Shown here piece by piece: positions 1-59,161 of a stretch of 59,161 bases of DNA. The notes beneath the pieces were generated by a model. That model worked only from the letters and a program-made list of their open reading frames with translations. It did not search any database and was not told the origin of the DNA. The position numbers were made by a program, and so were the translations under genes. Source of the DNA: Verrucomicrobiota bacterium (lineage in GTDB: Bacteria; Verrucomicrobiota; Verrucomicrobiia; Limisphaerales; PALSA-1396); the NCBI GenBank assembly GCA_016200005.1, contig JACQFP010000057.1, positions 1-59,161 on the forward strand, written 5' to 3'. How positions within the stretch are numbered: position 1 is the first letter of the stretch; the number at the start of each line of letters is the position of its first letter.

Positions 1-1
1 C

Positions 2-990: not shown

Positions 991-1014
991 TTCAGTGTTT
1001 CCAATTTCCGTATC

Positions 1015-2528: not shown

Positions 2529-2537
2529 CGTTCGCCT

Positions 2538-11054: not shown

Positions 11055-11185
11055 GGGGAAAAGTTCAAATCTGAAAGCAGAAATTGGAAATCAGAACACC
11101 AGACTGCTTGCTCCAAGAGCACGGGACGGCTTGCATTGTCAAAAAGCATAAATCATCAGTAAATTAGAAAGTTGAAGTCAGAGGC

Positions 11186-12397: not shown

Positions 12398-12408
12398 TTA
12401 CCAATCGT

Positions 12409-39904: not shown

Positions 39905-40467
39905 GCTTGAACAATAGCGCCTAAATCAAGCACAAGGCAAGGCGATTATCACCCCGGTCTTAAATCAGACATGCACACTCCAAGCGTGCCTTCCTAAGCG
40001 CCATCCCTCCCGGCGAAGCGAGCGCAGTCAAGGTGGAGACGCGGGGCAAAGGGGCGTTCGACCTTGACGGCGCGAACGAGCCATACAATTGCAGGCGCAA
40101 GGCACGCTGGTCTCGGTGATTCGACCAGGCTTCAGTTTGCCGTGGAAGCGCAATTCAAAGATTGTCGGTGTGCTGGTTTGTCGGCTAATCTCAACGAGTT
40201 CAGAATAGCAAAAATGACGACCAACTAAATTTTTAACAAAACACAATTCGCGTAGCTTCGGCTGCTGTCCACTACGAAACTGGTAATTTCAACTTGGAAG
40301 ACAGCGCTCGACGCACGCCCCGCCTGGGGCGTGCCGAAAGCGTTCTTCCAAGGGCATACCAGTGCCTGTAGTGGGACGTGATTAAGCACGTCCCTCTTGT
40401 TTTTAGGCACTCGTTCCCTTGGAGACAGTCAACCAGACAGGGCTGATTCGCACGCGAGCGAACAGCC
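39905..40467 (+). ncRNA. Candidate structured RNA upstream of the defence operon
   Basis: This 563-bp gap has no gene but contains two nested inverted-repeat structures. Structure A: AGCGTGCCTT (39983-39992) with AAGGCACGCT (40099-40108), GCGCC with GGCGC (39998-40002/40094-40098), and inner GTCAAGGT (40027-40034) with ACCTTGAC (40061-40068). Structure B: CCACTAC/GTAGTGG (40269-40275/40368-40374), ACTGGTA/TACCAGT (40279-40285/40357-40363), CTTGGAAGA/TCTTCCAAG (40293-40301/40344-40352) and GCACGCCCC/GGGGCGTGC (40313-40321/40326-40334). Structure B runs into a Rho-independent terminator. Could be an RNA gene, a leader attenuating the downstream operon, or a palindromic mobile element (MITE). 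Confidence 0.45.
40373..40404 (+). terminator. Rho-independent terminator or attenuator before the helicase gene
   Basis: Perfect 8-bp stem GGGACGTG/CACGTCCC with loop ATTAAG, followed by TCTTGTTTTT. It lies 64 bp before the helicase ATG and overlaps the last two bases of the large hairpin B, so formation of one could affect the other. Confidence 0.8.
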
Positions 40468-43400: not shown

Positions 43401-43878
43401 GGACGGCAACAACGTCACCCAATCGCAATTTGAAATTCTAAAAGCAGCCGAATGTTTGCCGGACACGTCCGCGTTGACCCGGCAGGAAAATCATCATCCG
43501 CTCGTCAGAAAAGGCGTGGAGTTTGTCGTCGCCGAGGAAAAAACGGTCGGCGGTCAGCTTGGGCGTCCCTCTGGCGCTCGATTCCGCACCTATGAACGTC
43601 TGAAACGCTATGCCGAACAGGTCAAAGGCATGTTGTTCGACACGCCGCAACTCGCCAAGACCATTGAGGAAATTTACCGATTCCCGCTCCGGCAATCCGC
43701 GACCGACACGCTCAACCGCCAGCTTCGATCCGGCATTTCTGACGAAAAACTGGCCGAACTTGTCATGGCCCTGCGCGATGACGACCGCCTGTGCATCGTC
43801 CACGAGGAGGAGCAAACGCATGAACCCCGGATTATCTGCTCGCTCGGCCTGGCTGCGCCGGAAAATTCCGCGTCCTGA
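40468..43878 (+). CDS. PLD-domain SNF2-like helicase
   Basis: 1136 aa. An N-terminal phospholipase-D-like domain (HAKLY near residue 138, [10 protein letters not shown] near 155, one HKD-type motif without the usual Asp) is fused to an SF2 helicase. Helicase motifs are Walker [11 protein letters not shown] near 283, DESH box [10 protein letters not shown] near 350, motif [13 protein letters not shown], and [13 protein letters not shown] and [11 protein letters not shown] near 833. A charged C-terminal region of 250 residues follows. This architecture occurs in restriction-like and DISARM-like defence loci, where it couples ATP-driven translocation to nuclease or target sensing. It is the first gene of a plus-strand operon; the methyltransferase starts 8 bp downstream. 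Confidence 0.87.
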
Positions 43879-43886
43879 AATACGCC

Positions 43887-46800
43887 ATGCCAGTCAACGT
43901 CAATCGCGTCCGCCAACTCCTTAAGAATTTTGATTTTCCCGCGCTGTTCCGCGAAGAACTTGGCTGGGACACTCACAATGCCTCGCTCGAAATTCAACTC
44001 GACGGCCAGCCGCAAAAACTTCAGGCCGTCGCCCAGAAGCGCGGCATGGTCGCTTTGCATTGCCCCACGCCTGCGGGCGGGCGTTTACCGGAATACTCTA
44101 TTCGCCGCAAAATCGAGCAGCAGGTCGCCAAGGCCGCGCATGAACATCTGATTATTTTCACTGACGCCGCGCAGACCACGCAAATCTGGCAGTGGGTGAA
44201 GCGCGAGCCGGGCAAACCTGCCGCCTGTCGCGAACACACTTTTCACAAGTCGCAAACAGGCGACGCTCTGATCCAGAAACTCGAAGTCATCGCGTTCACG
44301 CTCGTCGAGGAAGAAACCCTCGTGCTGATTGATGTGACCCGTCGCGCTCGCGCAGGTTTCGACGTCGAGCGTGTCACAAAACGGTTCTACGAAATCTTTC
44401 AGAAGGAACACACGGCGTTTCTGAAATTTATCACCGGCATCACCGAGAGCACGGACCACGAATGGTATGCGTCCGTCATGCTCAACCGCCTGATGTTCGT
44501 TTATTTTATCCAGCGTAAGGGCTTTCTCGACGGCGACCGCGATTATCTTCGTCACCGGCTCGACCGTTGCCAGAAGGAAAAGGGCCGGGACAATTTCTAT
44601 TCGTTCTACCGCTATTTTTTGCTACGGCTGTTCCATGAAGGCTTCGGCAAACGTCCGAAGGAGCGCGCGGCGGACTTGGAAAAACTCATCGGTCGTATCC
44701 CATACCTCAATGGCGGAATGTTCGAGCGTCACGACATCGAAAAACGCTACGGCGATGAAATCCAGATTCCCGACAAGGCGTTCGAGCGTATCTTCGATTA
44801 CTTCGACCAATATCAGTGGCATCTGGACGAACGCCCGTTGCGCGCCGACAACGAGATCAATCCTGACGTGCTCGGCTACATCTTCGAGAAATACATCAAC
44901 CAGAAACAAATGGGGGCGTATTACACCAAGGAAGACATTACCGAATACATTGGCAAAAACACGGTGTTGCCATTCCTGTTTGATGCCGCGCGGCCCAAAT
45001 GCAAAATCGCTTTTGAAAATTTCAACGGCCCGACGATTTGGGATTTGCTCCGCGAAAATCCTGACCGCTATATCTACAACGCGGTCACGAAGGGCGCGAC
45101 AATTCCGCTGCCAAAAGAAATCCATGCCGGGATCAAAGACGTGTCCAAGCGCGACGGCTGGAACAAGCCCGCTCCCGTCGAGTTTGCATTGCCGACGGAA
45201 ATCTGGCGCGAAGTCGTTGCTCGTCGCCGTCGTTATACCGAACTGAAATCAAAGATCGCCAATCGCGAAGTCACCAATATCAACGACCTCGTCACGCTCA
45301 ATCTCGACATCCGCCAGTTCGCGCAGGACGTGATTGAAAACTGCGAAGGCCCGGAACTGCTCCGCGCCTTCTGGCACGCCATTGAACGTGTGACTATCCT
45401 CGACCCGACGTGCGGTTCGGGTGCGTTTCTGTTCGCTGCGCTCAACATTCTTGAGCCGCTTTATGAAGCCTGCCTCGACCGCATGGAAGCGTTTGTGGCC
45501 GAACTCGACCGCTCAGGCGAAAAGTACCGGCCTGAAAAATTTTCTGATTTCCGCAAGGTGCTGGAGCGCGTGGCCGCGCACCCCAGCCGCCGCTATTTTA
45601 TTTTCAAAAGCATCATCCTGAACAATCTCTTCGGCGTGGACATCATGGAAGAGGCCGTGGAAATCTGCAAACTGCGCCTGTTCCTCAAGCTCGCCGCGCA
45701 GGTCGAGCCGGATGCTGCCAAGGAAAATCTCGGCATCGAGCCGCTGCCGGACATTGATTTCAACATCCGTGCCGGCAACACGCTCGTGGGCTACGCCACG
45801 GCGGATGAGGTGAAACGCTGCATGAAGGAATTTGGCGGCGGCCAGATGCGCCTGGGCGTTGATGACGAGTTGAACAGCTACGCGCGCTTTCTCGACCGGC
45901 TGCAAATTGCCGATGCCGCGTGGCGCAGTTTTCGCCAGCAGCAGACCGAACTTGGCGGGCGCGTGACCGTGGAGGACAAAGCCGAACTAAAATCCAAGTT
46001 GAAGGCGCTGGAAGATGAACTCAACCGCTACCTTGCGGGCGACTACGGCGTGAAAGCGGGTGACAAAACCACCTACGCCAAGTGGGTGAAATCGCACCAG
46101 CCGTTCCACTGGTTCGTGGAATTTTACGGCATCGTCAGCAACGGCGGGTTTGATGTCATTATAGGCAATCCGCCGTATGTTGAAAAACGCACGGTCGAAT
46201 CGCAATACCGACTTACGAGCTATGAAACCGAAACGACCAATAATTTATACGCTTATTGCTCGGAACGCGCGTTTGATCTGCTCATACAAAACGGTCGCTT
46301 CGGTTTCATCGTTCCGCTTTCATCACTTTCAACTGACAAGTTTGAACCTTTGCAAAAACTTGTATTGGGTCTGGGTTCGGTATGGTTGAGTAATTTTGAT
46401 GACCGCCCGTCGCGACTTTTCGACGGTCTCGAACATATTCAACTCACAATAATCCTAACGGCCAAAACGGGAGGCACGCCCACATTACCTTTCACGACTA
46501 TGTGTCGCAAATGGTCGTCCATTGAACGCCCTCATCTTTTTGCCACCCTGCGCTACGCGCAATTACATCGATCATATCTTCAAGGCAGCGTTGCAAAAGC
46601 TGGTGGTGATATTGAAGTCGATATTCTGGACAAACTTTGGGCCAAAAAGACAACTCTTACGAATTGGTCGCGCGATACCGGCAAATTCAGAATTTTCTAT
46701 ACGCGTAAAGTTCACGCGTTTCTTAACGTGTTGGATTTTGTGCCTAAGATTTACGACGGTCGTGGCAAGCTCCGCGACCCATCGGAACAGAAAACACTGG

Positions 46801-47210
46801 AGTTTGATTCCAAATCGTTTTCCGAGTCTGCCCTTTGCGCCCTGAACTCAACGCTTTTCCGGTGGTTTTTGTCAACATTCAGCGATTGCCGCAACTTAAA
46901 TTGTCGTGAAGTTTTATCGCTGCCTATTGAACTTTCGCAGGTGGTTGAGAAGGAAGGAACACACGTAACAAAACTGGCAAAGTCGCTTTCGGAAAGTTTG
47001 CAACGGACTTCGGAAACACGCGAAATGAGATTCAAGGATGATGTGTTAAAGGTGCAGTGCATTATCCCGCGATTCTCCAAACCCATCCTCGACGAAATTG
47101 ACCGGGTGCTGGCGCGGCACTACGGCTTCACGGCGGAGGAGTTGGACTTCATCCTGAACTACGACATCAAATACCGCCTCGGTCGTGACACTGAATCCGA
47201 TGCGGAATGA
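43887..47210 (+). CDS. Eco57I-type DNA adenine methyltransferase/restriction protein
   Basis: 1107 aa. Motif I ILDPTCGSGAFLF (near residue 505) and motif IV VIIGNPPYVE (near 760) define an N6-adenine methyltransferase of the Eco57I/PglX group. QMGAYYTKEDITEYI is the conserved segment before it. The N-terminal 330 residues (RKIEQQVAKAAHEHLIIF, DAAQTTQIWQWVKR) resemble the front part of large type IIG/ISP-like enzymes, but I cannot identify a PD-D/ExK triad. The C-terminal 300 residues would be the target-recognition region. Likely methylates host DNA and, with the helicase, discriminates foreign DNA. Confidence 0.87.
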   Translation: MPVNVNRVRQLLKNFDFPALFREELGWDTHNASLEIQLDGQPQKLQAVAQKRGMVALHCPTPAGGRLPEYSIRRKIEQQVAKAAHEHLIIFTDAAQTTQIWQWVKREPGKPAACREHTFHKSQTGDALIQKLEVIAFTLVEEETLVLIDVTRRARAGFDVERVTKRFYEIFQKEHTAFLKFITGITESTDHEWYASVMLNRLMFVYFIQRKGFLDGDRDYLRHRLDRCQKEKGRDNFYSFYRYFLLRLFHEGFGKRPKERAADLEKLIGRIPYLNGGMFERHDIEKRYGDEIQIPDKAFERIFDYFDQYQWHLDERPLRADNEINPDVLGYIFEKYINQKQMGAYYTKEDITEYIGKNTVLPFLFDAARPKCKIAFENFNGPTIWDLLRENPDRYIYNAVTKGATIPLPKEIHAGIKDVSKRDGWNKPAPVEFALPTEIWREVVARRRRYTELKSKIANREVTNINDLVTLNLDIRQFAQDVIENCEGPELLRAFWHAIERVTILDPTCGSGAFLFAALNILEPLYEACLDRMEAFVAELDRSGEKYRPEKFSDFRKVLERVAAHPSRRYFIFKSIILNNLFGVDIMEEAVEICKLRLFLKLAAQVEPDAAKENLGIEPLPDIDFNIRAGNTLVGYATADEVKRCMKEFGGGQMRLGVDDELNSYARFLDRLQIADAAWRSFRQQQTELGGRVTVEDKAELKSKLKALEDELNRYLAGDYGVKAGDKTTYAKWVKSHQPFHWFVEFYGIVSNGGFDVIIGNPPYVEKRTVESQYRLTSYETETTNNLYAYCSERAFDLLIQNGRFGFIVPLSSLSTDKFEPLQKLVLGLGSVWLSNFDDRPSRLFDGLEHIQLTIILTAKTGGTPTLPFTTMCRKWSSIERPHLFATLRYAQLHRSYLQGSVAKAGGDIEVDILDKLWAKKTTLTNWSRDTGKFRIFYTRKVHAFLNVLDFVPKIYDGRGKLRDPSEQKTLEFDSKSFSESALCALNSTLFRWFLSTFSDCRNLNCREVLSLPIELSQVVEKEGTHVTKLAKSLSESLQRTSETREMRFKDDVLKVQCIIPRFSKPILDEIDRVLARHYGFTAEELDFILNYDIKYRLGRDTESDAE

Positions 47211-47725
47211 AACCCATCGCGCTCAACGCTACTGACGCTCGTTATCCTGCGCGTTTTGCCTCTGGCTCGTTGCCGCAATTGTCCGCCTTCGGCAATCTCA
47301 ACCTGCTCGCATTGCCGAAAACGGCGCTTTTTTGTTCCACCCGTTGCCCCGGCCAAGCCATCCTCGCTGCCTACGACCAAGCCGCCCGCTGGCGTGATGC
47401 CGGTCGCTGCATTATCAGCGGGTTTCATTCGCCGGTGGAAAAGGAATGTCTCCGCATTCTCCTGCGCGGCAGTCAGCCCGTCATCATCTGCCCCGCCCGC
47501 AGTCTGGAAAAAATGCGTCTCGTATCGGGCTGGCAAAAATCTTTGGCCGATGGCCGGCTCTTGATTCTGTCCTGTTTCACCGGACGCGACCGCCGCGTCA
47601 CCGGCGCTCTGGCTGTCCGCCGCAACGAGTTCATCGCTGCTCTGGCGGATGAAGTCTGGTTCGCCCACATCACCCCCGGCGGCGAGATGCAACGCTTGGC
47701 ACACAAAATTGCTGCACAGGATTGA
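47207..47725 (+). CDS. DprA/SLOG-like protein of the defence operon
   Basis: 172 aa. Segments LFCSTRCPGQAILAAYDQAA, CIISGFHSPVEKECLRILLR and QPVIICPARSLEKMRL reproduce the Rossmann-like core of the DprA/SLOG superfamily (the Smf/DprA family binds single-stranded DNA; other SLOG proteins bind nucleotides). It overlaps the methyltransferase stop by 4 nt (ATGA), so it is an integral third component. It lacks the SAM and winged-helix domains of a competence DprA. Role unknown: DNA-end or nucleotide sensing are candidates. Confidence 0.75.
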   Translation: MKPIALNATDARYPARFASGSLPQLSAFGNLNLLALPKTALFCSTRCPGQAILAAYDQAARWRDAGRCIISGFHSPVEKECLRILLRGSQPVIICPARSLEKMRLVSGWQKSLADGRLLILSCFTGRDRRVTGALAVRRNEFIAALADEVWFAHITPGGEMQRLAHKIAAQD

Positions 47726-47735
47726 TTTCGTTCGT

Positions 47736-48284
47736 ATGCAGATCATTCGTGCCGTGCAGGTGAGCGCCGATCATTACGCGAGCACAAGCTTTCATCAGGG
47801 TATTGAGCCTCCGGTTGAATGCCCTCATTGTGATGCGAGGGATGCGCTAAAGGCGTTGGGTTATTATTCCCGCAACATTACCAGCACAGAACACGGGGTT
47901 TTACGCATTTTTGTGCGGCGGTTTCGATGTAGTCTTTGTGGCAAAACGGTCAGCATCCTTCCATCATTCGCACAACCATACCGACTGGTTTTGAATGCCA
48001 CGATAAATGAGTTTTTCGGCGGGACTTTAGGCACGAACTCACTTTCATGGCTCTCGCTTCTGCAACAATACTGGAACCGGTTCACTAAATGGATTCCAGA
48101 AATTAACCATGTCATAAAGTCCGTGGTGGAGCGTTCGCCTCCTCACCCGGACTCCGGCGGATGGTGGCAGGTTATAGTCGCGGCTTTCGGCAACCTCGAA
48201 AAAATCACCGGAATGCTTGTGAGTAGATTCGGTGTCACTCTGTTTGGTCGTTACCGCTGCCATTCACCTTGTGCCGAGAAATGA
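47736..48284 (+). CDS. Zinc-ribbon DUF6431-like (transposon-associated) protein
   Basis: 182 aa from ATG 47736. ECPHCDARDALKALGYYSRN and FVRRFRCSLCGKTVSILPSF give a C-x2-C ... C-x2-C zinc ribbon followed by the PSFAQPYR motif typical of DUF6431/IS-associated proteins; TNSLSWLSLLQQYWNRFTKW is a helical region. Starts 10 bp after the SLOG-like gene and is followed by a terminator, so it may be cotranscribed with the defence operon. It could be an insertion-element remnant instead of a fourth component. Confidence 0.65.
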   Translation: MQIIRAVQVSADHYASTSFHQGIEPPVECPHCDARDALKALGYYSRNITSTEHGVLRIFVRRFRCSLCGKTVSILPSFAQPYRLVLNATINEFFGGTLGTNSLSWLSLLQQYWNRFTKWIPEINHVIKSVVERSPPHPDSGGWWQVIVAAFGNLEKITGMLVSRFGVTLFGRYRCHSPCAEK

Positions 48285-48382
48285 GCCGCCGTGAATCCGC
48301 TCCACACAACTTAGCTATTTTCCTGAATAGCAATCCGTGGAAATCTTTCCGCGCCAATGAAAAGTGCCACTAAATCATTTTT

Positions 48383-48418
48383 GCGCGCCGAACGAAGTGT
48401 TCAAGGCGCGTTGCTTTT
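48383..48418 (+). terminator. Rho-independent terminator after the zinc-ribbon gene
   Basis: Nested stem GCGCC-GAAC-gaagt-GTTC-aa-GGCGC followed by GTTGCTTTT, about 100 bp after the stop at 48284. It ends the helicase/methyltransferase transcript ahead of the recombinase genes. Confidence 0.65.
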
Positions 48419-48482
48419 AAAAATCAGGGAACAGGCAAACCGCAATTGTGATCTCATCGTCAGCGGCTGCTGATTCATTTGT

Positions 48483-48665
48483 ATGAATACAGTAAATACA
48501 GAATTACCAACCAAGAGCGCCGCCGTTTATGTCAGGAAGTCCAAGAAACACCGACGATTTTCGATCAGCAACCAGGCGCGTGCGATTCGCAAATACGCCA
48601 AGCACCGGGGATTGAGAATTGAAAAGGCATACTTTGACTCGGCAAAACAGCCGATTGAGCGATAA
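48483..48665 (+). CDS. 60-aa mini-resolvase (serine-recombinase N-terminus only)
   Basis: The whole protein corresponds to the first 55 residues of the catalytic domain of the next gene: AAVYVRKSKKHRRFSISNQA aligns with AAAYVRMSTEHQQYSTSNQM, and RGLRIEKAYFDSAKQP with RGMQITKDYSDAGKSG. The catalytic Ser and the N-terminal Arg are kept, but everything after the first beta-alpha-beta unit is missing. It stops 3 bp before the full-length gene, so translation could be coupled. Either a degraded duplicate or a small regulatory protein. Confidence 0.6.
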   Translation: MNTVNTELPTKSAAVYVRKSKKHRRFSISNQARAIRKYAKHRGLRIEKAYFDSAKQPIER

Positions 48666-48668
48666 AAT

Positions 48669-50231
48669 ATGGAGCCTATTCAAAACAACTTAGAAGACCA
48701 AGGACTGCCACCCGTCAACGCCGCTGCTTATGTCCGAATGTCCACGGAACACCAGCAGTATTCGACCAGTAACCAGATGGATGTCATCAGGGATTTTGCC
48801 AAACGCCGTGGAATGCAAATCACCAAAGACTATTCTGACGCGGGCAAAAGCGGGTTGAATATCCAAGGACGCGAAGCGTTGGCGCAAATGATTAAGGATG
48901 TTCAGGACGGAAAAGTAAATTTCTCCTCCATCCTTGTATATGATGTCAGCCGCTGGGGACGGTTTCAGGATGCCGACGAAAGCGCCTATTATGAATACAT
49001 CTGCCGCCGGGCGGGAGTGGCGGTTCATTACTGCGCCGAGCAGTTTGAAAATGACGGCAGCCCTGTTTCTACGATTGTCAAAGGCGTCAAGCGCGCGATG
49101 GCTGGTGAATACAGTCGCGAATTGTCATCCAAGGTGTTTCAGGGAGCCTGCCGCTTGATTCAGTTGGGTTACAAACAGGGCGGCACGGCCGGATTTGGCC
49201 TGCGACGGATGTTGATTGACCAGAACGGCCAGCACAAAGCCGCGCTCAAGATGGGCGAACACAAAAGCTTGCAAACAGACCGGGTGATTTTGATTCCCGG
49301 CCCGGATGAGGAGGTCAAAATTGTTCATTGGATTTATCAGACTTTTATTAACGAAGGGAAAAGCGAATCAGAAATCGCCAGATCGTTGAATGTTCAAGGC
49401 TTGGTCACAGACTTTGGACGCGCATGGAACCGGGCCACTGTTCATCAGGTGCTCACCAACGAGAAATACATTGGCAACAATGTTTATCATCGCACCTCCT
49501 TCAAATTAAAACTCAAGCATGTGGCCAATCCGCAGGAAAAGTGGATTCGCGCTGACGGAATATTTGAAGGGATTGTCGAGCCAAGTTTTTTTCATACAGC
49601 GCAGGGAATCATTCTGGCTCGCAGCCGGAAGCTCACCAATGATGAAATGCTGGACAAACTGCGTGGCGTATTGAGCAAGCATGGACGCATTTGCGGCATG
49701 CTGATTGACGAGGCTGACGACCTTCCTTCCAGCACGGCATTTAGTCACCGTTTCGGCAGCTTGGTATCCGCCTACCGGTTAATCGGCTACGATCCGGGCA
49801 TTGATTACAGTTTCATTGAAATCAACCGCAAGCTGCGTAAACAACATCCTGAAATCGTCGCGTCGGTGATTCGGCAAATTCAGGGTTTGGGCGCAGTCGC
49901 CACCCTTGATGAGCAGACACAATTGCTTCACCTGAATAATGAACTGCGCATTTCCATCGTGATGTGCCGCAATATTATTACACCCGCCGGTTCATCGCGG
50001 TGGGTCGTACGATTGGATGAGGGGCTGAAGCCGGACATTACCGTCGCTGTTCGGATGGACGCCAACAATGAAGGCATCCGCGACTACTATTTACTGCCAG
50101 CGATCGACATGACATGGGAAAATCTGCGCACCGCAGAAGAGAATGGCGTTTACTTGGATGGCTACCGGTTTGATACGTTGGATTATTTTTTAGGCATGGC
50201 CGAGCGCATCAAGATTCAGGAGGCTGCATGA
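48669..50231 (+). CDS. Large serine recombinase
   Basis: 520 aa. Resolvase domain: AAYVRMSTEHQQYSTSNQMD with the nucleophilic Ser, DAGKSGLNIQGREAL and LVYDVSRWGRFQDADES with the catalytic Arg residues. The recombinase domain spans about 165-290 (KQGGTAGFGLRRML, EIARSLNVQGLVTDFGRAWN, RATVHQVLTNEKYIG). The C-terminal 220 residues have no C4 zinc ribbon or long coiled coil, unlike phage integrases of this class. The stop overlaps the first ParB-like gene by 4 nt. It probably mobilises this island; the target site is not visible. Confidence 0.88.
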   Translation: MEPIQNNLEDQGLPPVNAAAYVRMSTEHQQYSTSNQMDVIRDFAKRRGMQITKDYSDAGKSGLNIQGREALAQMIKDVQDGKVNFSSILVYDVSRWGRFQDADESAYYEYICRRAGVAVHYCAEQFENDGSPVSTIVKGVKRAMAGEYSRELSSKVFQGACRLIQLGYKQGGTAGFGLRRMLIDQNGQHKAALKMGEHKSLQTDRVILIPGPDEEVKIVHWIYQTFINEGKSESEIARSLNVQGLVTDFGRAWNRATVHQVLTNEKYIGNNVYHRTSFKLKLKHVANPQEKWIRADGIFEGIVEPSFFHTAQGIILARSRKLTNDEMLDKLRGVLSKHGRICGMLIDEADDLPSSTAFSHRFGSLVSAYRLIGYDPGIDYSFIEINRKLRKQHPEIVASVIRQIQGLGAVATLDEQTQLLHLNNELRISIVMCRNIITPAGSSRWVVRLDEGLKPDITVAVRMDANNEGIRDYYLLPAIDMTWENLRTAEENGVYLDGYRFDTLDYFLGMAERIKIQEAA

Positions 50232-51118
50232 AAGATGAAATTAAAATGATTCCGATTGATCGGAGTCGTATTCTGAATCCAAGACATCGCGACCGGAAAA
50301 AATTTGAGATTATTGTCCAGAGCATCAAAAATCTGGGATTAAAGAAGCCGATTCAAGTCAGCCTGCGGTCGGCCCAGGAGGAGGAAGGTGCGGGATACGA
50401 TTTGGTGTGCGGCCAGGGCCGGATCGAGGCGTTCATTGCGTTGGGGCACAAAGAAATTCCGGCCGTAGTCGTCGAAATTTCAAAAGAGGAACGTTTGCTT
50501 CGCAGCTTGATTGAGAACATGGCCCGGCGATACCCAGCACCCCTGGCCCTGATCCGTGAGATTGAGCGGCTTAAAGCAGCAGGTTACAACAATGCTGAAA
50601 TTGCGAGAAAACTCGATATTGATAATACGATGGTAGCGGGCTTAATCGCCCTCAAGAATGCGGGAGAGGAACGACTGTTGGATGCGGCCACCAGCGGACG
50701 GATTCCCCTCGGCGTTGCAATGGACATCGCCAAGACGGATAGCGTGGAAGCGCAACGTGAATTGCTCAAAGCGTTTGAAACCAAACAGCTCAACTATATA
50801 TCCATCCGGGTAGTGAAGCGCATAATTGACCAGCGACGCTTCGCGGGCAAGCAACGTGACACTAGCAATCGCGCCGGGCGGAAGAAACTTACCAGCGCCG
50901 AGAGCCTGGTAAATGCGTATCGGCGAGAGAGCCAGAAGCAAAAACTGATGATACGGAAAGCCAAGATTTGTGACGCCAAACTGGTCTTCATCGTGACAGC
51001 ATTGGATAAACTTCTCAGTGACGAAAACTTCATGACCCTTCTGCGGGCCGAATCCCTTCCCACCATGCCGAAATATCTGTGGGCCAAACTCGGAGCGAAA
51101 CACAAGGAGGCTGCATGA
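50228..51118 (+). CDS. ParB/RepB-like protein 1
   Basis: 296 aa. The N-terminal ParB domain holds LNPRHRDRKKFEIIVQSIKN, the CTP-binding-type box LVCGQGRIEAFIALGHKEIP and ENMARRYPAPLALIREIERL. It is followed by a helix-turn-helix (YNNAEIARKLDIDNTMVAG) and a RepB-like C-terminal region. ParB proteins bind DNA sites and can spread along DNA by CTP-controlled clamping. The start is ATGA-coupled to the recombinase with AGGAGG in front, so the two proteins are probably made in fixed proportion. It may guide the recombinase or partition an excised circle; inference. Confidence 0.85.
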   Translation: MKDEIKMIPIDRSRILNPRHRDRKKFEIIVQSIKNLGLKKPIQVSLRSAQEEEGAGYDLVCGQGRIEAFIALGHKEIPAVVVEISKEERLLRSLIENMARRYPAPLALIREIERLKAAGYNNAEIARKLDIDNTMVAGLIALKNAGEERLLDAATSGRIPLGVAMDIAKTDSVEAQRELLKAFETKQLNYISIRVVKRIIDQRRFAGKQRDTSNRAGRKKLTSAESLVNAYRRESQKQKLMIRKAKICDAKLVFIVTALDKLLSDENFMTLLRAESLPTMPKYLWAKLGAKHKEAA

Positions 51119-51990
51119 CTGATGTAAAAATTGGATTTGAAATGCAGAAGATACGGCTCTCACTGGCCGTGATTCTTCCGGTACGGCAGTTGAAGGACCC
51201 GCAGAAGAACATCCGGCGCTACCAAAAAATCCGTGCATCTATCAAGGAAGCCGGGCTGGTTGAACCGCTTGTGGTTCACCCGCAGAAGGACACATCTGGC
51301 ACATATCTGCTTTTGGATGGTCATCTCCGGTATTTTGCGCTGAAAGAACTCGGCGAGACCGAAGTGGACTGTATCATTGCCAACGACGACGAAAGCTTCA
51401 CCTATAATGCGCGCGTCAGTCGGCTGGCACCCATTCAGGAACACAAAATGATAGTAAAAGCAGTTCGTAATGGGGTGAAGCCGGAACGGATTGCAGCGGC
51501 GCTGAACATTCCCGTTGGGAATGTACGTGCGTCAATGAAACTATTGGACGGTATTCACGAGGAGGCCGCTGATTTATTGAAAGACAAGGCCATCAGTCCC
51601 AAGGCCATTCATTTGCTTAAACAAGTCACTTGCGTGCGGCAAATCGAAATCGCGGAGTTGATGGTCAGCGCCAACAATTACACGGCTGGCTATGCGGAGG
51701 CTTTGGTTTTGGGGACACCGAAAGATCAGTTGGCGCAACCTGAGAAACCGAAGGTCAAAGAGGGCTTGTCAGCCGAAGAAATTGGCAAGATGGAGCAGGA
51801 GATGGAATCTCTTGAGCACGATCTCAAAGCTGTTGAGGAATCCTACGGAGAAAACATGCTGAACCTTACCCTGGCTCGCGGCTATATTAAAAAGCTCATC
51901 GACAATGCCAAAGTTGTCAGGTTCTTGAATGGGAATTATCCTGACATTTTCTCTGAATTTGAGGCGATTGCAACCGCCGAGACTTTGTGA
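51115..51990 (+). CDS. ParB/RepB-like protein 2
   Basis: 291 aa, a paralogue of the preceding gene. QKIRASIKEAGLVEPLVVHP, the box LLLDGHLRYFALKELG, SRLAPIQEHKMIVKAVRNGV and the helix-turn-helix ERIAAALNIPVGNVRASMKL are present. The C-terminal half contains a heptad-like region (EIGKMEQEMESLEHDLKAVE) suitable for dimerisation. ATG 51115 is ATGA-coupled to gene 1 behind AAGGAGG. The stop lies only 6 bp from the stop of the convergent GIY-YIG gene, so there is no room for a terminator between the two operons. Confidence 0.85.
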   Translation: MTDVKIGFEMQKIRLSLAVILPVRQLKDPQKNIRRYQKIRASIKEAGLVEPLVVHPQKDTSGTYLLLDGHLRYFALKELGETEVDCIIANDDESFTYNARVSRLAPIQEHKMIVKAVRNGVKPERIAAALNIPVGNVRASMKLLDGIHEEAADLLKDKAISPKAIHLLKQVTCVRQIEIAELMVSANNYTAGYAEALVLGTPKDQLAQPEKPKVKEGLSAEEIGKMEQEMESLEHDLKAVEESYGENMLNLTLARGYIKKLIDNAKVVRFLNGNYPDIFSEFEAIATAETL

Positions 51991-51996
51991 TGTGAA

Positions 51997-52830
51997 TCAA
52001 CCAGCTTCTACGGGGCGCGTGTCGGCTGCCAGTTGATCAAGCGAGACCTCAAAAGCTTCTTCGATGAAGGCTCGTGTAATTGGTTGAGTTGCTAACGAAG
52101 CAACCACGCGTTGTGGTGTGTAGAGACCGCTATTTTTTCGGAAGTGGCCGGGTTTGGGCGCTGTTTTCTGCCAGTCAATAGCCACGAGATACTGCGCTCG
52201 CTCTGGGTCGTCGGCGTTCTCGAAAAGCCCAGGTTGAGCAAGTTTGTGTCGTGGAAGCGGTTTCCCTTTGAAACGGAATCGTTTCACAGCTAGGGAGCGT
52301 TGCTGCACTATGCCGACACCCAAAAACCCGCATTGACGCTGATAGGCCGCGACAACATCGCCGGGTTGCAGGCGTTCGAGTTGCTCACTCCAGTTCCGAC
52401 CATGCCCAGCCGCAATAAATCCAAAGCACATACAGTCGTCCCAAGAGCGCTGCGGCCCTTCGCTTACATTGACATAATAAATACTGTTGTGGAAATCGAA
52501 ACCGGGCAACTTCATGTGCATCGTATGCTGCGGCCGGAAATGGCTGGAATAGTGACCCGCACTTTGGTTGGTCAAATTCCGTCCCAGCTTCCAAATCAGA
52601 GTGGTTTCGACAAGCAGCGCCTCGGCAGCCGAAAGCCCCTTGGCGATGACACGGACGATAGGCTCTAGCCCCTCTTTGCGAATTGCTGCGATGCGCTCGG
52701 CCTTTTCTGACGGGCCGTTATCTTTCAAATGGCTCTCTTTGCGCCCGCCGCAGCCTTTGCCGTAGTAGAATTCCTCGAAGTTACGAGGATCAACATAGAG
52801 ATACACGTAGAAATCGGCACGCTCGTTCAT
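51997..52830 (-). CDS. GIY-YIG nuclease fused to an EVE/PUA-like domain
   Basis: 277 aa. Residues 5-115 are a GIY-YIG nuclease: YVYLYVDPRNFEEFYYGKGC with the paired Tyr, Arg in GCGGRKESH, catalytic Glu in ALLVETTLIWKLGRNLTN. Residues 135-210 match an EVE/PUA-type pocket: RSWDDCMCFGFIAAGHGRNW, LQPGDVVAAYQRQCGFLGVG. EVE domains bind modified bases, so this looks like a modification-dependent restriction enzyme. The frame opens to 52959, but MNERADF at 52830 starts the nuclease domain; ribosome-binding site weak. It is the third gene of the AddBA-like operon, 85 bp after addA. Confidence 0.78.
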   Translation of the reverse strand: MNERADFYVYLYVDPRNFEEFYYGKGCGGRKESHLKDNGPSEKAERIAAIRKEGLEPIVRVIAKGLSAAEALLVETTLIWKLGRNLTNQSAGHYSSHFRPQHTMHMKLPGFDFHNSIYYVNVSEGPQRSWDDCMCFGFIAAGHGRNWSEQLERLQPGDVVAAYQRQCGFLGVGIVQQRSLAVKRFRFKGKPLPRHKLAQPGLFENADDPERAQYLVAIDWQKTAPKPGHFRKNSGLYTPQRVVASLATQPITRAFIEEAFEVSLDQLAADTRPVEAG

Positions 52831-52915
52831 GGGTGGTGATGTTAATTGAAAATCGGCTTCCTGGACAAGCTCGCTGCTTATGAGCATCAATAGTGCTGTG
52901 TCCAACAGACAGCAG

Positions 52916-55900
52916 CTATACATTGCCATCGAGCAGCACCTCAACGAAACCGCCGCCAACGGCGAAGTGTATCCACACGCTTGCGACAGGCAGTTTCAGT
53001 TTCTTCAGCGCCTCGCGATACAGCGCAAGTTGGCCGCTGTAAGAAACAGCTTCGGTTGGCCACTCGGAGCGCTTGCCGGGGAATGATTTGTGGTCAATGA
53101 GAATCCAGCCATTGCTTGTTTCCACCAGCATATCAATGAAGCCCTCGATGCGTTGATCCGATTCATTTGTGGTCGCAATCGGAATTTCCACGAGCACCTG
53201 TTTCGGATGAAATTGCTGTTCAAGACTGGCGCGAAACTGGTCCACCGTCTGGAGAACGTCCTCGCCTTTGAGGTGATCGCTCAATTCGTATCCGAGTAGA
53301 ATACGCTGGATGGTTTCCAGTCTTCGAGCATGGCCGGGATTGACGAACTCGGCAGCGAAAATGGCGTGCAGTGCATCTCCCAAGTCCGCTTCTTCCAGCG
53401 CACCGGAGAATGGCAAGCGCGGGCCAATCTCAATGATTCTTCCAATACGACTTCCTAGAAGTTGCGATTGACGCGATGGCGTCAACCGAGCCGACAGTTT
53501 TGGCGTCGGTGTCAACGGAGCAGGAAACCAAGCGTAAGTTGAATCCATCTTGGCTGATGCGATTTCAGCGGGAGGCGTCAGTTGCAGGGTTTGCAAGCTG
53601 AGTGTCGTCTTGTCAGGCAAGACGAGTTGGTCTCTACCCGGTTGCAACCACTGAGCTTGCAGTCCTTCCAGCCACGGCGCGGGCTGGTCTTTCTCTCGGA
53701 CAAGCACCAACAAATCGCGTGCTCGGGTCAAACCCACATAGAGCAACCGGAGTTCTTCCTCCACCGCTTTGCGCAAAGCGGCGAGGCCGATGTCGCCAGC
53801 TTCCACGTTCGTATGCAGCGGGATTCCGGTTTCTTGCTGGCCGAAGGGCCACGGCCAAAATCGGAGACGACGATTTGCCAGCGGCTGATTGAGGTCGAAT
53901 GATTTTGTCGGGTCAGCCGGTATTACGGTGACTTCCCACAGGCGAGGCCGAGGCTCGGTATTCAGGTCGGTGCAGATGACGATGGGCCATTCAAGCCCTT
54001 TGGCCTGATGGTAGGTGCTTACGAAGATGGCATTGACCTGCGCATCCGTTGCCTTCAAATCCGCTTCCGAATCAGCGAGGAAGTCGCACCAATTTAGAAA
54101 GCTGGCGATGGTGGCCGGAGTATGATTCTTCGCCGCTGCCTGCTCGTATTTCACCGCGATGGCGCGTAGCGATTCCAGATTGGCACGGCGTTGGGATGCT
54201 CGTGTTACGGTAGAACCCCAAGCGGACACGGTCGCGAATACACCACCATCATGCAGGGCGACATCCAGCGCCTCGCTGGGTGAGAGCACATTCAACCGGG
54301 CGCGGGCCTGCTCCAAGGCCACAATCGCGGGATGAACAAAATCTCCTTCAAGTCCCCAGCGGTCACTCCTGATTCGCTCAGTCTCCTGTCGCGCCTTTGC
54401 GACATATTTCAGGCGGCTCTCGAGCCATTCCTCCGGTTGCTGGGCCGCTTCCAACGCAACGATTTCTGCCGATGCGAGCGAGTCGGTTGGGTCTGCCAGC
54501 CGTCGAAGACAAGCCAAAGCGAGCCTGGCTTCAGGCGTGGCCAGCAAACCACTTTGAGACAACGTGACCGTATATCCGCGTTGCGTCAGCTTCGCGGCGA
54601 TTGTTGCAGCGGCCAGATTGGTGCGGCACAACACCGCCATGTCGCGTGGCTCTATCGGGCGGAGGCGTTCACGATTCAGTCGGTCTTGAACAACTAATTT
54701 GTCTCCGCGACTGAGCAATTGAACGATCCCGTCGGCAAGTGTGATAGCGCGCTGGTCGTTGGTGAGTTTTTTCAGCGCACCATTACCCTTATTGAATTGA
54801 CTCCCAACCTTCCTGACTTGTTCAACGACTGCCTTGATTAAGTCGGGGTCACTGTTGCGAAACCCGTAGATGGCCTGCTTTACGTCACCCACCCAGACAG
54901 TCTCGCGGGCGAGCGTGGCCAATTGCATGAATAAGGCGAGTTGGAGGGGGCTGGTATCCTGGAACTCATCCACAACGAGCAGATCCAATTCGTGGCTGAG
55001 AGTATCGCGCACCTGTGCTTGGTCGCGCAGTAATTGAAACGCCCGTTGCTCAAGGTCGGAGAAATCCAGCAGGCCACGCTCTTCTTTGAGGCGTTGGAAC
55101 TCTGTCAAAGAAAGCTGCGCCACGGAAAATAGCAGCATTGTGTAATCCCGGATGTGCTCGTGAAGCTGCGGGTGAGTCTCGACGCGATTTGCCAACGCCG
55201 TAACCGCAGCGGCATCAGCCTGACTTTTCTTGCCTGGCTGCTTTTTGCTTAGCTTGATCCAATCACTCCACGGCAACCGATGCGCTTCGAGCGCCCTCAA
55301 AGCATCTTGGAGCAGTTCCAAATAGTCCGCGGCGACCCCGGTTTCGTCTCCATTCTTGGAGATGCGATCCATAGCCGATGTGATGGCCGCAGCCAACTGG
55401 TCGTCAAGGTTGTCAGTCGTAGGAGCAGGCAGAAACGCCAGCAGTTCGTCAATACTTTGCCGCCCCATGTCTGCCAACGAAACTGGTGGGAAGTCGTTGG
55501 CGCGTGCTGCGTCAAGCAACGCTCGCACTTGTCGCTTCCAAAAGTATTCAAAGGTTCGGGAGTCCTTCTGTCCGAGAATATCAGCAAGGCGTTGTAGCCG
55601 ATTAAGTGTGCCGAAGTCCACTGCGGTCTCAATGGCTTGAATCAGCAGCGAGGCGGCATCATCTTCTGCGAGGATTTCAATGCGGGGCGAAATGCCGGCC
55701 TCAAATGCAAAGCGTTCCAGCAATTGACCGCAAACGCCGTGAACTGTCCCCATCAGGCTCTCGTGCAATCGCTCCGCTAATGGAGGGTGCCCGGAGTTGT
55801 AGAGACGCCGTCGCACGCGCTCGCGCAGTTCCTGCGCCGCTTTGACCGTGTAGGTGGTTGCGATCAACCCGCCCGGGCGGCACAATCCTTTCGAGAGCCG

Positions 55901-55978
55901 GTCCTCAATAACCTCCGTGATACGGTGGGTTTTGCCGCTGCCGGCGCTGGCGCTGATGAACGTGATATTCGTTTTCAC
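52916..55978 (-). CDS. addA: AddA-like UvrD helicase-nuclease
   Basis: 1020 aa. SF1A helicase: Walker A SASAGSGKTHRITEV (residues 9-23), Walker B LLVVDEFQDTSPLQLAL, motif III WVGDVKQAIYGFRNSDP, VSTYHQAKGLEWPIVI and motif VI RLLYVGLTRARDLLVLV. C-terminal RecB-type nuclease with GDALHAIFAAEF, GFIDMLVETSNGWILIDHKS and YSGQLALYREAL (His, Asp, D-x-K and Gln/Tyr motifs intact). It starts with GTG at 55978, overlapping the addB stop by 4 nt. AddAB resects double-strand ends and degrades foreign DNA. Somewhat shorter than typical AddA (about 1150-1230). Confidence 0.87.
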   Translation of the reverse strand: MKTNITFISASAGSGKTHRITEVIEDRLSKGLCRPGGLIATTYTVKAAQELRERVRRRLYNSGHPPLAERLHESLMGTVHGVCGQLLERFAFEAGISPRIEILAEDDAASLLIQAIETAVDFGTLNRLQRLADILGQKDSRTFEYFWKRQVRALLDAARANDFPPVSLADMGRQSIDELLAFLPAPTTDNLDDQLAAAITSAMDRISKNGDETGVAADYLELLQDALRALEAHRLPWSDWIKLSKKQPGKKSQADAAAVTALANRVETHPQLHEHIRDYTMLLFSVAQLSLTEFQRLKEERGLLDFSDLEQRAFQLLRDQAQVRDTLSHELDLLVVDEFQDTSPLQLALFMQLATLARETVWVGDVKQAIYGFRNSDPDLIKAVVEQVRKVGSQFNKGNGALKKLTNDQRAITLADGIVQLLSRGDKLVVQDRLNRERLRPIEPRDMAVLCRTNLAAATIAAKLTQRGYTVTLSQSGLLATPEARLALACLRRLADPTDSLASAEIVALEAAQQPEEWLESRLKYVAKARQETERIRSDRWGLEGDFVHPAIVALEQARARLNVLSPSEALDVALHDGGVFATVSAWGSTVTRASQRRANLESLRAIAVKYEQAAAKNHTPATIASFLNWCDFLADSEADLKATDAQVNAIFVSTYHQAKGLEWPIVICTDLNTEPRPRLWEVTVIPADPTKSFDLNQPLANRRLRFWPWPFGQQETGIPLHTNVEAGDIGLAALRKAVEEELRLLYVGLTRARDLLVLVREKDQPAPWLEGLQAQWLQPGRDQLVLPDKTTLSLQTLQLTPPAEIASAKMDSTYAWFPAPLTPTPKLSARLTPSRQSQLLGSRIGRIIEIGPRLPFSGALEEADLGDALHAIFAAEFVNPGHARRLETIQRILLGYELSDHLKGEDVLQTVDQFRASLEQQFHPKQVLVEIPIATTNESDQRIEGFIDMLVETSNGWILIDHKSFPGKRSEWPTEAVSYSGQLALYREALKKLKLPVASVWIHFAVGGGFVEVLLDGNV

Positions 55979-58725
55979 GCGTCCGCCCTCCAGCCGGTCA
56001 AGGCATCAAAGTCGTTATACCTGGCATGGTCTTCGTTGGAAGCCCAATGGGGGAGCGGCGGAGTTGAATCAGGAGCTTCATCAGGACTTTCAGACGCATC
56101 TAGGCCAACCGTTGTGAGTTCAATCCAACCCTCATCGAGTTGTTGCCGCCGCCACCGCCAGACATGCTCGAAATCAGTCCAGCACTGGTGAAGCTCGCCT
56201 GGTGGGAACTTGGATGTGACAACTTTCGCCTCCGGGCAAAATGTTTTCGCAGTCGCGATAAGCCGTCGCCGCCGAAGCAGGAAGAACGCGCTTGCGGGCC
56301 AATCCTTCTGCCCCTGACCGCGCAAAACATGACCATAAATTGCCAGTTGCAACGGGCGGTTTTCTTGAAGTTCCTTTTCCCGAACTTTCCTTCCGCCAAA
56401 TTTCAAATCCACCACCGCAATACCGTCCTGCTGGTTTCGCACCAGCAAATCAATGATGCCGCTTATCTGCCCTCCGGCAAATGAGACCGGTTGCAGCGTT
56501 TCATTCGCGCGGGCTTCCACCACTTTTGCCTGGCGCAACTGAAATAAGAGTTGCCACATAGCCTGCCTTCCCAATTCCAGCAGCCCCAGAGCGTCGGCAC
56601 GCTTTCCCGGAAGCAGCAGGTTTGCGCCTTCTTGTTCGAGCAGTGGCGGCCATACTCCTTCCAGCCACGAATCTAATTCTGACTGCGAGCATGTTTGCCA
56701 GTTGATTGAATTTCCCGCGACCAGTAAGAGATCGAGCATACGATGAAGCAGCGTGCCTTCCTGCCGGTAATCGGCTTGCAGGCGCAAACTGGCAACTGGT
56801 CCAGCTTTCAACCCGGCCTTGTATTGCAGCACCCACGCGCTTGGGTCGTAAATAAATTTCTCGGCACTCGAATATGACTCCACCTCCCGAGGTTGAAGAT
56901 GCTCGGAAGTGTTCGTTTTCCACCAGCGACTCAACGCCGGCAGCGGACGATGGTTCACCTGCACAAAATGCCACGGCGCGGCGGCCTTGCCGGTAGAAAT
57001 CAAGTGATCCAAATCAACGACCGGTAACGGCTTGCTCTCCTTATCAAGAAGTGAAACCAATCGAGTTAATAGAGGATGGTGGGCGACTGGTTCTCCGGCA
57101 CGTTCGCGAGGATAAACCAGAATCAGTTGCTTCTTAGCTGACAAGATTGGGCGAAGCCATCGCTCAGTTTCCATGACAGCCAAGGTTTCTGGCGTGGGAA
57201 ACTCGACGCCGTGTGCTCGCAGTTGCTCCAGTTCTTGAGTTGTCCACGGCAATCTGGCCGGTGGAAGCGGCTCGCTGAAATTCCACCACACCACATTGTC
57301 CACCGGCTCATTGACAGCACTTGGATGCGCCACACGGTGAATGTGGCCGAGTTCTTCCATTGCAGACCCGCCCGGCCAGCCCGTTCCGCTGACTTGATGC
57401 AATAAGCGCTCCAACTGACTTCGAGCGATGGTGGGTTGTGATTGGAGCAGTTCAGCCATTTCGGAACTGAGTGAGGCGAGCGCTCGAAATTGATGCACCT
57501 CGATTATCGAAACGCCGTCAGCAACCGACTGGAGCGCGGCCAAACGGGCCACTCGCACACAGCATTCCGAAAGTTTTGGGCCACTTGCTCCTGCCTTGGC
57601 ATCAAACTCGGCGACGAGCAGCCAGTCTTTCAAGTCCTGGTCGATTCGCTCCGTAGCGGCCTGCTTCTCAACCGCACTGAGTGTGCCAAAATTTTCGATA
57701 CTCTCCTTGGTGGCCGCAATTGCCGCCTTCCACTGCGGCCCTCCGACACCAGGACAATCCGCAATGACGTTCGCCAGTTTGAATCGCAGCACGCCAGCGA
57801 CCGGACAGGCAGGATGTGCGAGAAATTCGAGCAGGGCGCGGGGATTAACAGGTTTCCAATAAAGTCGCAATGCAAGCAACAGCACCTGCGGGATTGGGCG
57901 CGCGGTCGAACCGGGCTGGAATCCCACCGTCGGTTCATCCAGCGACGAAAGCGCTTGCTCCAAAGGCGAGGCGCTTTCTGCTGCAACAATCGTGACCTCC
58001 ACGTTTGACACTTGCCGAAGATGCTGAAGCAATTGTGCTGTGCCGTATGCAAGCGTGATTTCGGAGAACGCAGTGACGCACAAAATTGACCGGTCTCCGT
58101 TCAATTTGAGTCGTTGCGTGGGATTATCTTTCCGTAACAACGACTGGATGCGACCAAGGTCAGTGGTTTCACCAGTGAGATTAGCCTCTGGATTAAAAGC
58201 AGCCGGTTCGTAACGCGCTCCAAGCTTTGCACAAATCAGCCGCCAGAGTTTCGGCAGGTGACTCGGCGAGTTGCGCACAGCTAACCAATCGAGATTGGGA
58301 GAGCGGGAGTTGAGTTCAAGCAGAACGGAACGAAGCCGGTCTGACGTGCCGGGCGAAAGGCGTTTCCCAGTCCGTGCTTCCACGGCAACTATGTCTTGAA
58401 TCCTTATCGTGTCGTCGGCTGATGCCAATCCATCCCATCCAACTTCGATCAAGTCATCCCGCCATTTCAGCAAGGTTTCTGCGACGGCGTAGGAGTCTCG
58501 CCTGAAAGATTCGCTGAAAAACATCGGGCGCTCGGTCACAAGTTCTTCAAGAATTTGCCGAAATTGAAATACTCGAAGCGCAGAGCTGGTTGCCTTTGCC
58601 TTTAGTCCCAACCGTGTTTCAAGAAACTGGAGGAGACCCAACGGTCCGTACATGGGCATAGCCAATGTCTGCTTCGGGAGAAGCGAGGCATACCCATCAA
58701 GGCACAGGCCAAAGCCAACTTTCAT
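55975..58725 (-). CDS. addB: AddB-like nuclease subunit
   Basis: 916 aa from ATG 58725, preceded by a perfect AAAGGAG six bases upstream. The frame is open further upstream through the CRISPR repeats, but that stretch is repeat translation and is excluded. The N-terminal two thirds have no Walker A (GLCLDGYASLLP at the start) as in the inactivated helicase half of AddB. The C-terminal nuclease shows SGIIDLLVRNQQDGIAVVDL then KFGG and PLQLAIYGHVL, the D ... D-x-K ... Q-x3-Y pattern near residues 755-800. I do not see the four-cysteine iron-sulfur cluster of Bacillus AddB. First gene of the operon; the CRISPR array begins 107 bp upstream of its start codon. Confidence 0.83.
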   Translation of the reverse strand: MKVGFGLCLDGYASLLPKQTLAMPMYGPLGLLQFLETRLGLKAKATSSALRVFQFRQILEELVTERPMFFSESFRRDSYAVAETLLKWRDDLIEVGWDGLASADDTIRIQDIVAVEARTGKRLSPGTSDRLRSVLLELNSRSPNLDWLAVRNSPSHLPKLWRLICAKLGARYEPAAFNPEANLTGETTDLGRIQSLLRKDNPTQRLKLNGDRSILCVTAFSEITLAYGTAQLLQHLRQVSNVEVTIVAAESASPLEQALSSLDEPTVGFQPGSTARPIPQVLLLALRLYWKPVNPRALLEFLAHPACPVAGVLRFKLANVIADCPGVGGPQWKAAIAATKESIENFGTLSAVEKQAATERIDQDLKDWLLVAEFDAKAGASGPKLSECCVRVARLAALQSVADGVSIIEVHQFRALASLSSEMAELLQSQPTIARSQLERLLHQVSGTGWPGGSAMEELGHIHRVAHPSAVNEPVDNVVWWNFSEPLPPARLPWTTQELEQLRAHGVEFPTPETLAVMETERWLRPILSAKKQLILVYPRERAGEPVAHHPLLTRLVSLLDKESKPLPVVDLDHLISTGKAAAPWHFVQVNHRPLPALSRWWKTNTSEHLQPREVESYSSAEKFIYDPSAWVLQYKAGLKAGPVASLRLQADYRQEGTLLHRMLDLLLVAGNSINWQTCSQSELDSWLEGVWPPLLEQEGANLLLPGKRADALGLLELGRQAMWQLLFQLRQAKVVEARANETLQPVSFAGGQISGIIDLLVRNQQDGIAVVDLKFGGRKVREKELQENRPLQLAIYGHVLRGQGQKDWPASAFFLLRRRRLIATAKTFCPEAKVVTSKFPPGELHQCWTDFEHVWRWRRQQLDEGWIELTTVGLDASESPDEAPDSTPPLPHWASNEDHARYNDFDALTGWRADA

Positions 58726-58831
58726 CGTCTCCTTTGTGTAGTTGGATCGGATGAGTTCGATTGTTCTTTTGCAGGCATGTCGAAATGCTAACAAAACCGC
58801 TGAACTCGGCAACGCTTTGCGGATACGAAGT

Positions 58832-59161
58832 GCTTCAACGGGGCCGCGCCCGCGCGGGCGCGGAGTGTTGTCCAGCCGTTGTCCACGGAGAGGACGCAAT
58901 TCTCGCTTCAACGGGGCCGCGCCCGCGCGGGCGCGGAGTGCGATGGGACTGTAGATATTTGGGCAAAAGTAGATGAGCTTCAACGGGGCCGCGCCCGCGC
59001 GGGCGCGGAGTGCCGACTTGCTGCTCAAACCGCAATCCATCGAAAGCCTGCTTCAACGGGGCCGCGCCCGCGCGGGCGCGGAGTGTTCCAAGTCCGTTTA
59101 TTCCCGGCGCTCCTGACGATTGGCTTCAACGGGGCCGCGCCCGCGCGGGCGCGGAGTGCTT
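58832..59161. CRISPR. CRISPR array, five identical repeats, cut by window edge
   Basis: Exact 36-bp repeats at 58832-58867, 58905-58940, 58977-59012, 59050-59085 and 59123-59158, with unrelated spacers of 37, 36, 37 and 37 bp. The repeat starts GCTTCAACGGGG on the plus strand, contains the 20-bp perfect palindrome CCGCGCCCGCGCGGGCGCGG and ends AGTG. Read on the minus strand it ends GTTGAAGC, close to the common ATTGAAAC 3' end. Transcription to the left, toward addB, with the leader beyond the right edge is therefore more likely, but not proven. No repeat seen is degenerate and no cas gene is in view. Subtype cannot be assigned; a GC-rich hairpin repeat of this length fits type I. Confidence 0.95.

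Follow-up and report, generated by a model that had tools for sequence, protein, structure and literature searches.

Why should a gene pair resembling AddB and AddA, the partners of a helicase-nuclease, lie directly beside an array of clustered regularly interspaced short palindromic repeats (CRISPR)? The question is raised by a stretch of 59,161 nucleotides from a Verrucomicrobiota bacterium, which was analysed at its full length and is referred to as “the window” in this study; it is contig C57 in its entirety, one of the 87 contigs of a genome of 6.54 Mb (G000). RecBCD-made end fragments are a reported source of spacers, yet RecBCD and AddAB are general-purpose enzymes of the host. A first, sequence-only reading of the window had suggested that the pair (AddBA), together with the GIY-YIG gene that follows it, could be a CRISPR accessory module. 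Here we report that AddB-AddA pairs closely related to that of the window are found at CRISPR loci of three kinds, and we consider the chances even that one AddBA clade was recruited to CRISPR loci of Cas4-type subtypes (I-G, I-C and V-B) as a dedicated end-processing helicase-nuclease supplying prespacers.

The CRISPR array and the gene pair of the window

The array (58832..59158, minus strand) consists of five 36-bp repeats, starting at 58832, 58905, 58977, 59050 and 59123 and identical in all copies, with four spacers of 36-37 bp, and it reaches the contig end. With five exact copies in register and a repeat core unique to this site of the assembly, the array is beyond chance; the same uniqueness implies that the far side of the array was not assembled. 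Read on the minus strand, the repeat has ...CCCCGTTGAAGC-3' as its end; if the usual rule for such an end applies here, array transcription runs toward addB, with addB at the trailer end. A gap of 106 bp (58726..58831, minus strand) separates the last repeat from the ATG of addB and is homologous to, and as long as, the interval at a related locus, L044; the array does indeed adjoin the AddB start, as had been claimed. The GC-rich palindromic repeat gave no Rfam match near the gathering score, and the 22-base cores of all four window spacers had no exact match in viral_contigs.

The addB gene (55975..58725, minus strand; 916 aa) begins within an open reading frame (ORF) that, taken mechanically, extends through the repeats to 59040; its start was placed at the ATG at 58725 because homologues begin there. 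The C-terminus of the protein is a RecB-type nuclease (PF12705, its sole Pfam domain match), and the N-terminal part is helicase-like with no visible Walker A. All 19 aligned sequences share residues H661, D759, D773, K775, Q793 and Y797, presumably the catalytic set. A 19-row AddB profile matched the mycobacterial AdnA chain in the PDB over positions 503-785 (E 1e-7), and an 8-row profile gave nothing convincing there. For an AlphaFold model with a mean predicted local distance difference test score (pLDDT) of 55, the top five Foldseek matches were two AddB chains, two AdnA chains and one RecC chain, at template modelling (TM) scores below 0.3. Neither the NCBIfam AddB models nor any AddB-specific PADLOC model matched the protein. 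A RecB-family nuclease joined to a helicase-like fold is what an AddB-type partner has, and both are found here, albeit with a weak structural model.

The addA gene (52916..55978, minus strand; 1020 aa) overlaps addB by 4 bp, in line with the coupling claimed for the two genes. It encodes a UvrD helicase with a C-terminal PD-(D/E)XK nuclease, carries the motifs SASAGSGKT (Walker A), DEFQD, GDVKQ and VGLTRARD, and shows the matches of an AddA-type subunit (PF00580, PF13361 and PF12705 in Pfam and 3u44_A in the structural database). Against the addA_Gpos equivalog, however, it scores 185.7 bits, far below the cut-off of 707.65, whereas a separate 1224-aa AddA on contig C26 of the same genome scores 829.6 bits. 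The pair is therefore AddAB/AdnAB-like and not the housekeeping one. It is predicted to form a heterodimeric helicase-nuclease of the AddAB/AdnAB type. AddAB of Bacillus and AdnAB of mycobacteria likewise consist of two genes, an AddA with UvrD motor and nuclease and an AddB-like partner with a RecB-type nuclease; the window pair differs from them in falling below the AddA equivalog cut-off, in being accessory and in being CRISPR-linked in one clade.

Relative to L044, the window addA lacks about 61 codons in frame (183 bp; 4148-4330 in L044; junction at 54799..54801, minus strand), a deletion that the sequence-only reading had overlooked. It takes out the helicase motif IV region (SWRS in L044), which is kept in L044 and L045. 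The remaining motifs and the nuclease residues are kept and both window frames are open.

Close AddB relatives at CRISPR loci

Nine close AddB members, the window included, share AddB identities of 36-84%. Six of them lie at CRISPR loci, that is, six of the seven whose context is resolved: three beside arrays of the I-G repeat family, one in a type I-C locus and two in type V-B (Cas12b) operons. The first group comprises the window, L044 and L110, from three different families. At L044, in a Verrucomicrobia metagenome-assembled genome (AddB 79% identical), two I-G-family repeats lie at the contig end, the nearer one 106 bp before addB, and 79% DNA identity with the window runs through addB, the interval and a repeat; this contig reappears as C311 of G492, a genome of another family. 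At L110 (AddB 84% identical over the 187 residues that are left), addB lacks its first four-fifths or so and comes directly after the final 20 bases of an I-G-family repeat; addA is intact. As this lies at a contig start, the arrangement might come from misassembly.

The type I-C locus was met twice, since L105 and L163 are one contig (C55 of G630). It carries a few array repeats, cas1, cas4, cas7c, cas8c, cas5c, cas3c, AddA, AddB and a divergent WYL gene, cas2 not being identified there, and AddBA sits between the WYL gene and cas3c with a gap of 191 bp between AddA and cas3. In the type V-B cases the pair and the operon lie on separate contigs of the same genome. L106 stops inside AddA at a contig end, and L203 opens in the C-terminal part of AddA, some five residues on in the alignment, and continues after about 0.8 kb with Cas12b, a Cas4/1 fusion and an array. 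L107 stops inside AddB, and L202 opens with the C-terminus of an AddA; the Cas12b ORF lies 81 bp away, and Cas4/1, Cas2 and a long array follow it; Cas2 was seen in L202 and not in L203. In both the I-C and the V-B loci, AddBA immediately precedes the effector genes on their 5' side.

Contig ends cut off two of the other close members, leaving 191 bp of downstream sequence at L045 and 0 bp at L108; no cas1 was found in the genome of L108, and that of L045 has one on another contig. In the AddB tree all six linked members fall into one seven-member clade, with L045 as the seventh, at a support of 92/96, under the program's mark of 95. When labels were shuffled on the tree, 1 of 500 shuffles needed as few changes, a figure to which near-copies contribute. 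Upstream of the pair, L045 carries an ORF (1847-2668) with no PADLOC match, which by its motif looks like a NADAR-type protein.

As controls, distant AddB loci and loci of the window's neighbouring genes were screened with 14 cas proteins of types I-G, I-C and V-B as queries and a strict array finder, other CRISPR types being visible only by relatedness. CRISPR was found at none of the 19 distant AddB loci (15 are flanked on either side by about 2.4 kb or more; L037, L043, L113 and L114 are cut), compared with 6/9 close loci. It was also found at 0/3 loci of the GIY-YIG gene and at 3/15 loci of the recombinase-ParB module (L115 and L165-L178, L115 having been chosen because of its array). The linkage of the clade to CRISPR is recurrent and exceeds that of other island genes, in a small sample with three contexts and uneven follow-up. 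In our judgement a 3-copy repeat in L040 is not a CRISPR, as it sits inside an ORF (10917-12398).

Repeat family and cas genes

Elsewhere in the order, the repeat family of the window adjoins type I-G genes: all four loci tested (L116, L118, L127 and L131, drawn from 18 array loci fetched) were above the I-G cut-offs. The repeat search matched 50/320 genomes, many by single matches at 3 mismatches, and a reversed control also matched in some genomes. Because of this noise, follow-up was confined to places with several copies and to single copies lying at a contig end.

The sequence-only reading had advised a search for cas genes beyond the array. C57 breaks inside the array; the cas genes were sought in the assembly by Cas1 and Csb2 family searches, Csb2 being a marker of type I-G. 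The sole Cas4/1 fusion found in G000 adjoins Cas12b, and Csb2 was not found there. The I-G loci of other genomes in the order carry a Cas4/1 fusion; no I-G Cas4/1 was found in the three genomes with array-linked AddBA.

The Cas12b-like ORFs of L008 (11209-15444), L202 (4289-8989) and L203 (1510-5829), of 1411, 1566 and 1439 aa, are longer than the PADLOC Cas12b profiles (1000-1130 positions) and are accompanied by Cas4/1 fusions; one of them is in the window's genome. That genome also has a Cas1c-like gene (L009, 9122-10180), and no array was found in the 19.9-kb stretch around it.

Distribution of the pair

AddB homologues, close and distant together, occur in 12/320 genomes of the order, in 8/387 genomes sampled from the phylum and in 2/58 genomes of a first set of relatives, the window's genome counted each time. 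Given their presence in 12/320 genomes of the order, the AddB-AddA pair is accessory. This sparse occurrence and the second AddA, above the cut-off, on C26 rule the pair out as the housekeeping copy. The sequence-only reading had staked its case against this being the sole housekeeping copy with no conserved CRISPR neighbourhood in relatives, and neither holds, as a second AddA exists and the linkage recurs.

Two scans of viral_contigs gave no confirmed AddB. Elsewhere, one unannotated phage record matched at 30% identity. Plasmids gave AddB matches in 26 records, with 25-29% identity in the best 20 of the 26. Among five plasmid AddBA loci viewed, a WYL gene was nearby in three (L209 8992-15831, L211 4106-13826 and L213 6553-13834); otherwise the neighbours were a cyclic-oligonucleotide-based antiphage signalling system (CBASS), SIR2, AbiE or restriction genes, or none of these. 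The pair on L211 is near CBASS and AbiE genes as well as the WYL gene. The plasmid pairs are likely a stand-alone defence operon, and members of the wider AddBA family appear to stand on their own as two-gene operons in defence islands and on plasmids, in some cases beside a WYL gene.

Possible roles of the pair

In the mechanism proposed here, one AddBA clade in the order would have been recruited from the stand-alone family to CRISPR loci. AddBA would enter free double-stranded ends of invader DNA, and it would unwind and cut these ends into fragments for Cas4-Cas1-Cas2 while destroying the invader at the same time; working cas genes would presumably serve the I-G-family arrays beside it. 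A role in adaptation is favoured because the three subtypes have Cas4-bearing adaptation in common and not an effector: in the I-C and V-B loci of this study Cas4 accompanies Cas1 (separate or fused), and the effectors differ. We suggest tentatively, and with somewhat less than even confidence, that the pair might be a dedicated, locus-encoded prespacer generator of the RecBCD class, exchanged between I-G, I-C and V-B loci, so that spacer capture would be independent of housekeeping AddAB or of Chi. If so, a helicase-nuclease would join the list of CRISPR accessory genes, and a RecBCD-class pair at CRISPR loci that use Cas4 would make the origin of prespacers testable by adding or removing one operon where RecBCD is lacking.

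Several observations weigh against this proposal. The six linked loci represent only three contexts; of the two V-B joins, that of L106 and L203 is an alignment across a contig break and that of L107 and L202 spans about 2.7 kb of missing sequence. The V-B links came from a cas1 search in eight close-member genomes, and distant loci with cut flanks had no equal follow-up; the array finder also overlooked the arrays of L044 and L163, which are short or varied. The type V-B locus of the window's own genome has no AddBA beside Cas12b. One close member, L109 (39% identical), shows no CRISPR in flanks of 9.3 and 4.6 kb; its genome and those of L044 and L108, three of the nine, gave no cas1. Csb2 was not found in G000, in the L044 genome (G443) or in the L110 genome (G590), and the array-bearing G443, with neither cas1 nor csb2 found, bears on the adaptation role in particular. 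The I-G-family arrays beside AddBA may, for these reasons, be orphans. Finally, two of the three array-linked AddBA copies are damaged (the window AddA and the L110 AddB), the L044 pair being complete, and defence genes cluster anyway.

The last point leads to the explanation that AddBA is an independent anti-phage helicase-nuclease whose linkage to CRISPR is island clustering. The lack of CRISPR at the 19 distant loci, the varied company of the plasmid pairs and the case of L109 agree with it, as do the three genomes in which cas1 was not found and the nature of the window itself, a defence island with an AbiE pair, SNF2-PLD, type IIG and recombinase-ParB genes. We nevertheless regard it as rather unlikely, since six of seven resolved close members are linked, and in three subtypes; the array spacing is identical between loci at 79% identity; AddBA is placed within a row of cas genes, between WYL and cas3; and other island genes are less often linked. 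The position just 5' of the effector genes could alternatively mean that AddBA acts in interference, degrading target DNA from Cas12b or Cas3 breaks or from the R-loop. Cas12b only cuts, and a processive degrader would add clearance. However, types I-C and I-G already own a Cas3 helicase-nuclease, and it is the adaptation module that is alike among the three subtypes while the effectors differ, so that this role appears quite improbable.

A different explanation is that the window locus is a relic only, the remains of a lost type I-G system in the form of an orphan array with a broken AddBA. This is a possibility to be taken seriously, although on balance we doubt it. The motif IV deletion in AddA, the truncated AddB of L110 and the searches that did not find csb2 (G000, G443 and G590) and cas1 (G443) speak for it, and the deletion, together with the damage to two of the three array-linked copies, puts the function of the window's own copy in doubt. 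The open frames and intact nuclease residues of the window and the complete pair of L044 speak against it, and assembly gaps can explain why csb2 was not found: G456 has I-G cas4/1 and Cas3-extension genes on L116 and likewise gives no csb2, which shows that genes can be lost to view at contig breaks. Moreover, a relic would concern the window copy and not the clade, and is compatible with recruitment of the clade to Cas4-type loci; the window is probably a partly decayed example of that clade, with AddA lacking motif IV and Csb2 not found in the assembly.

The closest precedent is an AddB-like nuclease/helicase that also lies beside an interspaced repeat array, the array being CRISPR-like and without cas genes (PMC10910872). 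As described there, and compared by description only, that system lacks cas genes and is distinct from CRISPR, whereas the repeats here are of the I-G family and relatives of the pair are in I-C and V-B loci. The possibility that AddB and the array of the window form such a cas-less RNA-guided system fits the L044 genome, in which cas1 and csb2 were not found; it seems to us very improbable, because in other genomes this repeat family accompanies I-G cas genes, and the I-C and V-B loci that house members of the AddBA clade contain cas genes.

Other known systems resemble the dedicated prespacer supplier proposed here in part. UvrD-Cas4 fusions and operons (PMC5704561) likewise combine a superfamily 1 helicase with a Cas4/RecB-family nuclease in a defence setting, in some cases with WYL; there the two parts are either fused in one chain or encoded by separate UvrD and Cas4-like genes, often with restriction genes nearby, while here both subunits are large and AddAB-like. 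In E. coli, type V-A and V-B adaptation is reported to take up RecBCD-made fragments (PMC9419969). Chromosomal RecBCD/AddAB as the supplier of prespacers acts on free DNA ends, as is proposed for AddBA, but these are general host enzymes and not encoded by CRISPR loci, unlike AddBA. Among the papers listed in a literature search, with supplements outside its scope, none described an AddAB-like pair inside cas operons of type I-C or V-B.

Neighbouring genes of the window

The gene following addA (51997..52830, minus strand; 277 aa) matches GIY-YIG (PF22945, E 2.5e-8), and its C-terminal part matches PADLOC PDC-S11 (E 3e-31). Of the GIY-YIG/EVE fusion claimed for it, the first half stands; no Pfam EVE match was found in four GIY homologues, one of which gave a sub-threshold PUA-like match (E 0.07). 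GIY matches occur in 9/320 genomes, its own included; G489, which has a distant AddBA, has a short one. None of the eight genomes of the other close AddB members has a match, and the gene was therefore rejected as part of the AddBA unit. It is probably a separate neighbour; its three best homologue loci show no CRISPR signs, and its structure predicted from one sequence (pLDDT 34) was uninformative. The accessory module of the sequence-only reading thus keeps AddB-AddA, found with I-G-family repeats in three genomes, in I-C in one and in V-B in two, and loses the GIY gene; its modification-dependent nuclease part is not supported.

Next to it lies a module of DUF6431, serine recombinase and two ParB/RepB genes (47649..51990, plus strand). 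Its second ParB has matches in 31/320 genomes of the order, and the module abuts I-G-family repeats at 3/15 loci, at L165 about 10 bp from the array. Further on are an SNF2-PLD helicase and a type IIG restriction-methylase (40468-47210) and an AbiEi/AbiEii pair (38217-40472). Short stretches of DNA next to the AbiE pair are also present downstream of AddA at L044 and L110, which suggests that the approximately 12 kb after addA differ by an insertion in the window lineage.

At L109, the flank of AddBA carries a regulator of the RtcR type with a CARF domain. A Spirochaetia locus with an AddBA pair (L046) has, at 1-4253, the same SNF2-PLD and type IIG neighbours as the window, at 53% and 47% identity, the second being cut.

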